The position numbers were made by a program, and so were the translations under genes. 64,000 nucleotides of DNA from the NCBI RefSeq assembly GCF_036322805.1, contig NZ_AP027272.1, positions 806,001 to 870,000 of the forward strand, read 5' to 3'. The DNA is from Planctobacterium marinum (GTDB lineage: Bacteria > Pseudomonadota > Gammaproteobacteria > Enterobacterales > Alteromonadaceae). The notes beneath the pieces were generated by a model that saw only the letters and a program-made list of their open reading frames with translations, was not told the DNA's origin and did not search any database. This document shows, one piece after another, positions 11,177 through 43,485 of this stretch. Numbering within the stretch: position 1 is the first letter of the stretch; every line of letters starts with the position of its first letter.

Positions 11177-11848
11177 GATCGCCTTCTAATAAATTTCAGT
11201 AGGGGAGTTTTTAAGAGTCTGTCTAAGCTTATTTCGGAGTAACGTTCGGGGTTCCCTTTACACGCAGTAAGCTAAGTATTCAGATGGCACAATAATGAGA
11301 GGTATCAGGGAAGATACCCATACCAATAAGAAGCCCTCAGAATGCTACTCAGTGGAAATTGAAATGCTTTTAGACAAGGCAGATGCTTGAAGATCTAGTG
11401 GGCTAAATTAATAACATCTAACACAGTATTAAAGCATTTCAAATCCATCGAAGACGACACCCCAGCGGCTTATTTCTTTGTTGCCAACATGGATGTTGGT
11501 AAGGGGCGAGAGCAGGATGCGGGAAGCTTTGCGTGATATTCAAAAGACCACCAGTATTTTTTCAATCACGCGCCTCGAACTAAGCTCGCAGGGATGTCGC
11601 TGAGCAAATGCTGGGGGCTACTTATTGGTATCATCATGCCAGTATAGGGACATACTGTCATTGATGGTCATTATTGTGCTGAATACGACGATTACGCTTT
11701 GCGTGTCAAGGGCTGCGGAGGATTCTTAAGGAGTGCCGCAGGCAGCATTCTCTAAGGCGCCGCCGCTGCCCCAGCAAAATAACATAACTACTCGAAGATA
11801 TCGTGATTACTGCGTACAGTAATGACCAATAGTTCGAACTATTTGAAA
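11177..11848. other. Gene-free decayed stretch
   Basis: In 672 bp there is no open frame with a start, ribosome site and recognisable product. It contains the decayed MITE-like copy described separately (11358-11442). Downstream of it, frames at about 11450-11680 are interrupted by stops within 20-40 codons, and I could not assign them to a family. The stretch 11700-11780 has short GC-rich repeats (ATTCTTAAGG and ATTCTCTAAGG, each followed by GCCGC-like sequence). It looks like the scar of past insertions between the TetR gene and the YHS gene. Confidence 0.5.
11358..11442 (-). repeat. Decayed copy of the MITE-like element
   Basis: It is bounded by a perfect 12-bp inverted repeat, TTGAAATGCTTT and AAAGCATTTCAA. 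Inside, a 31-nt segment matches the reverse complement of the intact element at 41300-41535 at 28 of 31 positions by eye (shared words TAGACAAGGC, ATGCTTGAAG and TCTAGTGG). The rest has diverged and the outer TAGAGCGTG ends are missing, so this is an old or partial copy. Confidence 0.6.
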
Positions 11849-40381: not shown

Positions 40382-40459
40382 TCACTTTATTAATTAGCCA
40401 CATTTTCTGCCTAATAGTTTAAAATGCGTTATCTTGCATTACAACATCAGACCTCAGCT

Positions 40460-41302
40460 ATGGCCAAAACCGGACAACTTTTTATTGTCGCCACTCCTAT
40501 CGGTAACCTCAGTGATATTACTCATCGTGCCATAGAGGTATTGAATACGGTTGATATAATTGCCGCGGAGGATACACGTCACAGTGGTCGATTGTTACAG
40601 CACTACGGTATTAATACCCGGTTAATTGCGTTGCACGAGCACAATGAAACGCAGAAGAAAGCTTGGGTGATAGAGCAGTTAAAAACGGGGCTGGATATTG
40701 CCTTGATTTCCGATGCTGGTACACCACTTATTAGCGACCCTGGTTTTCCATTAGTGAACAGTTGTCGGGAGTCTGGATTAGTTGTAACGCCTGTACCCGG
40801 CGCTTGTGCAGTCGTGGCAGCATTGTGTGCCTCGGGCTTGCCAACCGATGCGTTTCAGTTTTGTGGATTTCTACCGGTTAAAACACTGGCCAAGGAAAAT
40901 GCCCTGAATGCTATTCAGGATACTCGTAAAACTAGCATTTTTTATGAGGCGCCAAGACGGATAAGAGATACGCTTGCCACTATTGCGCGCTGCTTGCAAG
41001 CCGAGCGTCAGATAGTGGTAGCGAAAGAGCTCACCAAGAGCTTTGAGCAATTTTTTAAAGGCACTGCACAGCAAGCGCTGCAATGGTTGGATGAAGAGCC
41101 ACAAAGAGAAAAAGGCGAGTTTGTACTGTTAATTGGTCCGGCTGAGCAAAATGATAGTGGTATCCCACCGGAAGCGGTAAAGCTACTTTCCAGTTTAACT
41201 CCACTGATGCCGGGTAAAAAAGCGGCCGCTTTGGTGGCTGAGCACTACCAGTTAAAGAAAAATGAACTTTACAAGCTAACCCTGGATTTAAAATCTGACT
41301 AG
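40460..41302 (+). CDS. rsmI: 16S rRNA (cytidine-1402 2'-O) methyltransferase RsmI
   Basis: Methylates C1402 in the ribosomal decoding centre using SAM. The 280-residue form starts at ATG 40460 and begins MAKTGQLFIVATPIGNLSDI; an upstream in-frame ATG at 40424 lies in the promoter region. Tetrapyrrole-methylase fold motifs LISDAGTPLISDPGF and VPGACAVVAAL are present. Its TAG stop (41300-41302) is formed by the end of the MITE-like element. Confidence 0.97.
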   Translation: MAKTGQLFIVATPIGNLSDITHRAIEVLNTVDIIAAEDTRHSGRLLQHYGINTRLIALHEHNETQKKAWVIEQLKTGLDIALISDAGTPLISDPGFPLVNSCRESGLVVTPVPGACAVVAALCASGLPTDAFQFCGFLPVKTLAKENALNAIQDTRKTSIFYEAPRRIRDTLATIARCLQAERQIVVAKELTKSFEQFFKGTAQQALQWLDEEPQREKGEFVLLIGPAEQNDSGIPPEAVKLLSSLTPLMPGKKAAALVAEHYQLKKNELYKLTLDLKSD

Positions 41303-41535
41303 AGCGTGTTGAATGCTTTTGATTTATCCCTACATGGATGTAGGTGATTAGAATAACGCAGGAGCAGTTTTCGAGAACCACTAGACCTTCAAGCATTCGC
41401 CTTGTCTACCAAATGCTGTAGGAACAGCATAGAACAGCGTTAGCCGGCCTGCGAAGCTGGTTAGCTAAAAGGACGTAGCGAATAAATTGCACACAGCAAG
41501 CTGCGAAATTGCACAGCAAAGTTCAACACGCTCTA
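41300..41535. mobile_element. MITE-like element with 14-bp terminal inverted repeats
   Basis: A 236-bp non-coding element with perfect ends TAGAGCGTGTTGAA (41300-41313) and TTCAACACGCTCTA (41522-41535). The outermost TA on each side looks like a duplicated TA target, as used by IS630/Tc1-mariner transposases. Internal structure: GAATGCTT / AAGCATTC (41311 and about 41390), CTACAT-GG-ATGTAG, and a GCCGGC / GCTGGT stem. No transposase frame is present, so it would need help in trans. It sits exactly between convergent genes and supplies both stop codons. Confidence 0.8.
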
Positions 41536-43017
41536 ATTCTTAAAGGTATTCACTTTGTTCCACAGATTTTGGGTGCGGGTAAAGGAGAAAAAATCCTGAG
41601 GGTGCCAACATCTTGGGACCAGATCGGCATCATCACCCTCTTTAAAGTCGGATTTTAACTCTTTGAGGATTTCGATGAGTTTGGTTTTACTAACTTTTTC
41701 CAGTTTTTTGCGGGTCGCCGGATAAAACAAATTATTGGCTTTGCTGATAACGTGATTGATGGCAAATGCGTTGAACTGCAAGCCTCGAGTGGCAACCCGA
41801 CAAATAGGGACGTCCAGTTGTTTAGGATAGAGTGAGTTCACTACCGCATATTCGTACCTGTCCAGATCAAAGCCATCTGAGTCTTTGGGAATGTATACCA
41901 CGCCAAACCCCTGTGGGAATATACCTAAGATTTCAATCAGTGAATCGGAGACCTCTTTGTTGTACGCGCCAACTTCAGCTCCTCTCTCCATTACTGCATT
42001 AACGCGAGGTAATGATTCGTAGGTGTAATTGGCTTTGGTGGACATCACCACTGAGCAATAAACTTGCGGTACTTTGAGCAAATTGCCAATACCATCGCCG
42101 GGATTGATTGCGCTTTTCAACAGATTGCGAATAAACAGCAGTTTTTTCTTTTCGGTATCGAGGAAAACGTCTCTTTCTTCTTTACTGTTACCGGTATATT
42201 TTTGCATGCCCAAGCCCTGAGTTACAAACTTCAAAGACTGGGTATAGTTGATTTTTAACAGATTATTTCGGTCTTCTTTTTCCAGCATCCGAAACTCATC
42301 TTGATCGCCATCTTCTCCGCGTAATATAAGGTCTGCATCGGGGTGTACCTGGCCGATATCCTGGCAAAGACAAGCGATAATCAGGGGGATTTCAACATCA
42401 TTGCGATAAGGAGATTGTTCTATTTCTTTATCTTCCTTATCCATCATAAAATCAACGTTTTCTTGGTATTTGCTACTGATATATTTGTCGTTGATTTTTT
42501 CTTTTTGTACCAGGTGATGTACTAGCTTCACTGCTAAAATAGCTTTGTATAAATGCTTGGTTTTCTGATTTTGGCGAGCGACATCGTTGCCTTCTGTAGG
42601 AGATAGCAGTTGTAGTGTGCCTAATGCCCGAGCGACGTTGCTGTTAAACTCTTCATCGTTCTTGCCTTGCAGTGCAGACATTAAATCTTTTGCTAGTTTT
42701 AACACTTTGTCTAAACGCTCGTAGCGTTTTTCATCCTGCTCTCGCTCTATATCTTTGTGAGCGATTTCCAGCGTATCTTTTTTTAGGTTAAGCTTTTTTA
42801 ATTTTTCTTCATCGGAGGTCATGTCGATGGCATCATCGACATCATCAATTTGGCTCTGAGCGAAAGCCAGCCGTTTTTCATGTTCTGGTGCTTCGGCATA
42901 AAAATCAGCAGCAATTTCGAATAATGAATCACGAACAGGAGAAGCGCTATAAATACGCTTTAATATATCTTTTAGTTGTCGGGTGTGGGAGGCGTCTCCC
43001 TGTTGTCCCTTGCTCAT
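41533..43017 (-). CDS. Uncharacterised protein with degenerate HD-like motif
   Basis: A 494-residue, highly charged cytoplasmic protein with no signal peptide or membrane helix. Residues 45-115 form a strong coiled coil. The central part reads ACLCQDIGQVHPDAD (about 215-229), which resembles the HDIG core of HD/HD-GYP phosphohydrolases but with Gln in place of the first metal-binding His. A nearby pair HH (167-168) and a later segment IPLIIACL support a helical HD-type fold. The C-terminal half (residues 330-460) contains VCRVATRGLQFNAFAINHVI-like sequence that I do not recognise. Domain assignment is tentative and metal binding is doubtful. It stands alone between the MITE and rnpB. Confidence 0.7.
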   Translation of the reverse strand: MSKGQQGDASHTRQLKDILKRIYSASPVRDSLFEIAADFYAEAPEHEKRLAFAQSQIDDVDDAIDMTSDEEKLKKLNLKKDTLEIAHKDIEREQDEKRYERLDKVLKLAKDLMSALQGKNDEEFNSNVARALGTLQLLSPTEGNDVARQNQKTKHLYKAILAVKLVHHLVQKEKINDKYISSKYQENVDFMMDKEDKEIEQSPYRNDVEIPLIIACLCQDIGQVHPDADLILRGEDGDQDEFRMLEKEDRNNLLKINYTQSLKFVTQGLGMQKYTGNSKEERDVFLDTEKKKLLFIRNLLKSAINPGDGIGNLLKVPQVYCSVVMSTKANYTYESLPRVNAVMERGAEVGAYNKEVSDSLIEILGIFPQGFGVVYIPKDSDGFDLDRYEYAVVNSLYPKQLDVPICRVATRGLQFNAFAINHVISKANNLFYPATRKKLEKVSKTKLIEILKELKSDFKEGDDADLVPRCWHPQDFFSFTRTQNLWNKVNTFKN

Positions 43018-43138: not shown

Positions 43139-43145
43139 CCCGCCC

Positions 43146-43485
<340 letters not shown>

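Follow-up and report, generated by a model that had tools for sequence, protein, structure and literature searches.

The gene rsmI of Planctobacterium marinum lies in the 64,000-nucleotide stretch of contig NZ_AP027272.1 analysed here (the window, to which positions refer unless otherwise indicated), where it converges on a 494-residue gene with a short repeat exactly between the two. The 494-residue gene, which has no Pfam or NCBIfam match, is also convergent to rsmI in P. marinum K7 (82% identical) and in the genomes G002 (61%) and G016 (44%). It sits between rsmI and rnpB (43145-43400), the latter being outside the repeat, next after the 494-residue gene, and the only Rfam match above gathering score. 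The features of the junction are as follows.

40424-41302, + strand: rsmI (open reading frame with TP_methylase and RsmI_C domain matches); its stop TAG is the target TA plus the element's G
41300-41301: left TA target duplication, in the sequence the first two bases of the rsmI stop TAG
41302-41533, + strand: mobile element proper, 232 bp, equal to the 265-bp class plus a 48-bp insert plus a 76-bp insert minus a 157-bp deletion
41302-41312, + strand: left terminal repeat, GAGCGTGTTGA
41306-41312, + strand: GTGTTGA, putative junction of the 157-bp deletion, where a terminal-repeat copy would be fused to an interior copy
41327-41374, + strand: 48-bp insert (CCTACATGGATGTAGG module), missing from 265-bp copies (L041 compared with L046)
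41409-41484, + strand: 76-bp TA-bounded insert between GTCTA and AATTGC, missing from the 313-bp copy L041 (389 compared with 313 bp)
41523-41533, - strand: right terminal repeat, GAGCGTGTTGA when read on the - strand
41534-41535: right TA target duplication, which with the C before it gives CTA, the - strand stop TAG of the 494-residue gene
41533-43017, - strand: convergent 494-residue gene with stop TAG (open reading frame; beside rsmI and convergent in G001, G002 and G016)

As the original prediction had it, the sequence from 41300 to 41535 is a TA-flanked MITE. The element is 232 bp long, its arms (41300-41313 and 41522-41535, 208 nt apart) are 100% complementary over 14 nt, TA stands on both sides, no open reading frame of 60 or more residues lies wholly inside it, and dispersed copies are present. 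The 14-mer end has no other exact occurrence in the window; with up to two mismatches, three matches are found compared with 0.43 expected. The element as a whole (41302-41533) gives a weak full-length match to model R1 (E 0.006).

The terminal repeat common to the family is TA followed by GRGCGTGTTGA, and the AA at positions 13-14 on the left is best read as interior sequence that a deletion has brought next to the end, its match being accidental. A 393-bp copy at position 2330957 of the same genome has GTGTTGA a second time, 157 bases inward, and positions 7-236 of the window copy align to positions 164-393 of that copy. Because of this alignment, the window copy would most simply be a deletion derivative that lost 157 bp between two 7-bp GTGTTGA repeats (265 + 48 + 76 - 157 = 232).

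The left TAG had been assigned to the stop of rsmI and the right CTA to the stop of the 494-residue gene, and both open reading frames do end at these codons. The element contributes only the G of each stop codon, the TA being target DNA. When the flanks are joined over one TA they read GAC TAA on the + strand and AAT TAG on the - strand, and both frames would still end. K7 has no element at the rsmI junction (L103), and G001 has the same junction as K7. Compared with the joined window flanks, the K7 junction is two bases shorter when both TAs are kept and equal in length when one is kept, in agreement with the predicted insertion at a single TA with TA duplication and with the expectation that an element-free junction would hold one TA. 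This TA stands at the homologous place; however, the K7 site does not read GAC-TA-ATT to the letter, since the K7 rsmI ends two codons sooner and the two stops there are two bases apart. The prediction that removal of the element restores GAC-TA-ATT, with both frames still ending, is upheld for the frames and differs from K7 in the literal sequence. GAC-TA-ATT is the probable ancestral junction.

Other copies, likewise anticipated, are present in the genome that holds the window (4.87 Mb, one contig; labelled G000). We found 20 matched stretches, some of them parts of one copy, and model R1 marks 20 distinct places. Seven other copies were compared with K7: six align there to sequence free of the element (poorly at the junction for L041), and the seventh lacks an orthologous flank. 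Of these seven older copies, one is flanked by TA on both sides; the other six have it on one side, with CA, GA, TT or TG on the other, which is expected of older insertions and is no proof of TA duplication.

Relatives of the element land in the stop codons of genes more often than expected. A search of 147 genomes of the family with the pattern TAGRGCGTGTTGACCTTT gave matches in 71; the reversed control gave two over the whole set. We fetched 80 loci from the pattern matches, leaving out those in G132, G136, G142 and G161, two of the four in G148 and some in other genomes, and TA precedes 100 of the 115 end matches in these loci. Ends of open reading frames of at least 100 codons show a single sharp peak, with 20 at the TAG that TA makes with the first G of the element; the second stop of the element (TGA at +8) has eight, and no other offset has more than three. 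Over the element's three frames, the ends are distributed 19:8:2 (P = 4e-4).

One locus with masked Ns (L167) was dropped from the stop counts, leaving 79 insertions, among which 18 are in the TA of a stop codon, 21 in predicted genes and 40 elsewhere. The gene caller was simple, and expectations for the 58 insertions outside predicted genes were taken from sites of the same loci; on this basis, the 18 insertions in a stop TA compare with 2.2 expected from all TA sites (P = 3e-12) and with 4.9 expected from YTAR sites alone (P = 8e-7). All the genes served in this way differ, and BLASTP found no match between their tails. A search of 14 related genomes that gave no pattern match yielded orthologues for 15 of the 18 stop-serving genes and none for the other three. 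For 14 of the 15 testable genes, one or more orthologues have an end that coincides with that of the gene or differs from it by no more than two residues, and the tail of the 15th (L170) is too diverged to place. At L238 all seven orthologues are 1-5 residues longer, suggesting a possible small truncation of that gene. The original prediction had attributed tolerance of the insertion to ends that read TAG outward on both strands, and it is supported both by these landings and by the agreement of the orthologue ends.

Insertion into the TA of a stop codon should leave the protein unchanged, TAA or TAG becoming TAG, because both ends begin with GRG and the junction therefore reads TA plus G outward. 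One insertion can serve two genes, because YTAR, the target motif, is also the overlap of two convergent stop codons. For a TA-targeting element with G-starting ends, this gives a rule for harmless transposition, in which TAA and TAG stops, as well as overlaps of convergent stops, are safe landing sites; checked in the 79 insertions, the safe-landing prediction holds. None of 19 stop-serving rows, some of them with an unrecognised partner end, shows supply of stops to two genes, and the window is the sole case. None of 22 elements with TA-CC ends, which cannot make a stop, lies in a stop codon, compared with 10 of 34 (P = 0.004), a contrast confounded by a different preferred target context and by the origin of 14 of the 22 from one genome. 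This comparison covers pairings with TA at each flank; 29 A-type and 13 B-type pairings that fell short of this were excluded, and chance may account for some of those retained.

It should also be noted that in eight loci (L169, L173, L187, L190, L207, L218, L229 and L244) an open reading frame enters the element and ends at the TGA at +8, which adds a few residues (R-A-C or G-A-C, for example).

We infer that the enrichment at stop codons arises from the neutrality of such insertions. Alternatively, the transposition machinery itself could prefer stop codons, through the DNA near terminating ribosomes or a wider motif, with no neutrality filter needed. The excess does persist when only YTAR sites within 60 bp downstream of stops are considered, 18 of 28 insertions being in the stop codon compared with 9.8 expected (P = 0.0014). 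However, none of 11 full-length copies of the insertion sequences with related ends, described below, lies in a stop codon, and the YTAR motif together with purifying selection may suffice to explain the excess. An active preference for stop codons is therefore unlikely.

A further property of the family is its fold. The 60 delimited elements fall into discrete sizes (42-52, 170-196, 256-265, 311-313, 326-334 and 387-389 bp), the commonest being 263-265 bp (35 of 60). Alignment A1 holds 25 of these 35 elements, ten similar or identical ones having been left out, and its constant length is partly a matter of choice. All share a closing stem and two long arms. Changes on both sides are seen in 52 of 83 pairs, and 95.7% of cells pair, compared with 77% in shuffles and 31-40% when slid; four of five covariation measures were reached by no shuffle, and further pair types by 32 of 500. 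A wider set, with other families of the order added, retained 34 of 55 sequences after removal of near-duplicates. At a mean identity of 65%, these are 92% Watson-Crick over the 80 pairs that the folds of the two strands share, compared with 20-26% in slid versions, and 63 of the 80 pairs have at least two Watson-Crick types. Four different stems are capped by an apical module of 61 bp (or 109 bp) bounded by TA; of the 16 copies read, 13 form 9-10 of 10 pairs.

Selection on an RNA ought to leave an excess of G-T on the strand of that RNA. Correction between palindrome arms is an alternative process, and it acts on DNA. Because G-T and A-C mismatches are equally common in the wider set (49 compared with 47), the data point to constraint, or correction between palindrome arms, at the level of DNA. 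Folds of one strand had given an excess of G-T that would suit a reading as RNA, but these folds were chosen with RNA energies and the excess vanishes when the count is limited to pairs shared by both strands. A pseudo-dyad symmetry within the element was also considered and was dropped as barely above shuffles, though R1 matches many copies on both strands.

Like the structured RNAs of Rfam, the elements have a conserved secondary structure with many compensatory changes; unlike them, they have strand-neutral covariation and no match at gathering score, either in the window element or in sets of 18 and 20 loci. Among sub-threshold matches, mir-4520 (L122) lies inside an element and was taken as chance, and AsrC and Rev39 lie outside elements.

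The fold of the element is strong on both strands (z -4.9 and -4.0), as would be expected if the element were kept at gene ends by an action of its fold on the 3' end of the transcript, as an mRNA stabiliser or two-way terminator, so that stop sites are selected. The enrichment over other 3' sites described above would also fit. However, no terminator-like site was found in or beside the window element, the sole hit being inside rsmI (0.9 expected), and the balance of G-T and A-C mismatches gives no sign of selection on the transcript strand. Selection for a role at 3' ends is accordingly quite improbable, and we favour neutral landing at stop codons.

Insertion sequences with the same ends, which the original prediction had proposed to look for, were found in other genomes and not in the genus of the window as sampled. 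Copies of 856-880 bp with related ends have TA on both sides in all 11 examined, the other rows of the transposase search being partial, stop-containing or not taken. At L137 and L142 the insertion sequence has TA followed by GAGCGTGTTGATCTTT at both ends, and its exact GAGCGTGTTGA ends are the terminal repeats of the MITE; inward of the tips, MITE and insertion sequence cease to be similar after at most about 35 bp. Transposases from L135-L138 share 52-67% identity with the L134 protein, which alone was given a profile scan and which scores 258.5 bits with NF033580 (cut-off 110) and matches PF13340 and PF01609. At E 1e-20, a search of 59 genomes gave relatives of the L134 transposase in six, and none was found at this threshold in G000, G001 or G002 (the genome of the window and two congeners). 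Among 30 loci of 3 kb in the genome of the window, 14 were read for a second end and a transposase open reading frame, and none of these holds an autonomous copy. In this genus the helper may have been lost, have diverged or never have been there.

Two ends lying 1.15 kb apart in G132 turned out to belong to a MITE that an insertion sequence has entered. At this locus (L134, positions 816-1969) the matching outer ends had suggested a single insertion sequence, but the IS5-family copy, with inner ends GGGGTTGTTGATCTTT, is nested in a MITE of the same end type and lies in the middle of a palindrome (TTTAGC-TA-GCTAAA).

The size of 856-880 bp and the 2-bp TA duplication resemble the IS427 group of IS5, the likeness being one of size and duplication only. 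Most IS427-group elements listed in PMC3281130 are 832-865 bp long with a 2-bp DR, and a preference for YTAR targets is described for IS5 (PMC10359306). The IS5-family DDE transposase and the YTAR target are shared with IS5, and the length comes near that of the group (about 0.83-0.87 kb). In contrast, the insertion sequence described here has one open reading frame where the other IS427-group elements of PMC3281130 have two, and the MITE is no internal-deletion copy of the insertion sequence. The original prediction of an IS630/Tc1/mariner helper fits the TA duplication, a hallmark of such elements, but it is not supported and is highly improbable, as the insertion sequences with GAGCGTGTTGA ends encode IS5-family DDE transposases and a 2-bp duplication is recorded too for most listed IS427-group members (PMC3281130).

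It is very probable that the element at the rsmI junction is a non-autonomous MITE and that an IS5-family transposase mobilised it in trans, with TA as the target, YTAR being preferred, and with TA duplication, such that insertions into the TA of a stop codon leave the protein unchanged. Three results speak against this reading: the failure to find such a transposase in the genome of the window and its two congeners, the one-sided TA of six older copies, and the absence of the 11 insertion-sequence copies from stop codons. An IS5-type transposase, none of which was found in the genus as sampled, would have moved the element into a CTAA overlap of the stop codons of rsmI and the 494-residue gene, the probable ancestral junction. 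The TA would have been duplicated, the GRG ends giving TAG outward on both strands and so supplying both stops again, with both proteins unaffected. Deletion, either before or after insertion, would have shortened the element.

Stops supplied by MITEs are already known from BOX elements. In Streptococcus pneumoniae, the repeat is described as encoding the stop of 36 CDSs without strong evidence of truncation (PMC3049150). As described there, BOX elements are also modular and folded and supply stop codons; they belong to another host phylum, and the comparison is with literature descriptions, not with sequences. Unlike the case of BOX, here a fixed terminal G completes the stop at an exact TA, either end can do so, and an insertion sequence that shares these ends was found. 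MITEs of the ERIC/RU, RUP and Correia types are described as short and folded with TA at their ends or target, RUP being tied to an IS630 helper (PMC2229807, PMC2759123); they differ from the present element in size and, for RUP, in helper. Insertion of RU-1 is reported to eliminate the normal stop and extend the protein, the opposite outcome to that of the element here. The conserved fold is the newer part of our findings. No description of the element family, its characteristic length or strand-neutral covariation was found in titles and the openings of abstracts, among which few subscription journals are represented. For annotation, the landing of these elements explains why genes in these bacteria can end in a repeat without being truncated.

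Folded relatives of the element were found in many marine bacteria. Model R1, searched at E 1e-5 with rough E-values and without a decoy, finds matches in 107 of the 247 order-level genomes and in 32 of the 185 class-level genomes, many of the matches being full-length at 262-266 bp; copy numbers from R1 are lower bounds, as 8-10 candidates were scored per genome in the order and class searches. Twenty order-level matches were read. These are 262-265 bp long with GRG-type ends, and 16 have TA on both sides; two of the 20 serve as a stop. Named BLAST matches of one order-level element are in replicons of Pseudoalteromonas (7), Vibrio (4) and Catenovulum (1), and a BLAST of one element against phages gave none. 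A widespread folded element with strand-neutral covariation fits badly with the view of MITE interiors as decaying filler, and the role of the interior becomes a directly testable question.

Similar bodies are also found between other ends. In the genome of the window, R1 matches of 255-263 bp have ends reading TA followed by CCAATTCC (L035, L049 and L050), and the window holds a second element.

11323-11628 (11321-11630 with the TAs), - strand: second element with the same fold and other ends, TA-CCAATAAG...CTTATTGG-TA, 306 bp (R1 53 bits)

Bodies and ends appear to have recombined. A broader reading is quite possible, if still somewhat doubtful: the elements may form an ancient, class-wide family of folded DNA, mostly 262-267 bp long, in which the body is the heritable unit that outlives its ends and switches between transposase systems, stop capture being one consequence. 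Under this reading, the same fold would stand between IS5-type ends, between the TA-CCAATTCC ends and, probably, between the TA-CCAATAAG ends.

Some genomes (G140, G158 and G113) are rich in TA-CCAATTCC ends, with 41 + 48 end matches in G140. In G457, G544 and others, class-level elements match R1 about equally on both strands, as if the arms were interchangeable. Finally, the 48-bp and 56-bp inner modules occur in 11 and at least nine places, respectively, in G009 and G016 without the rest of the element.
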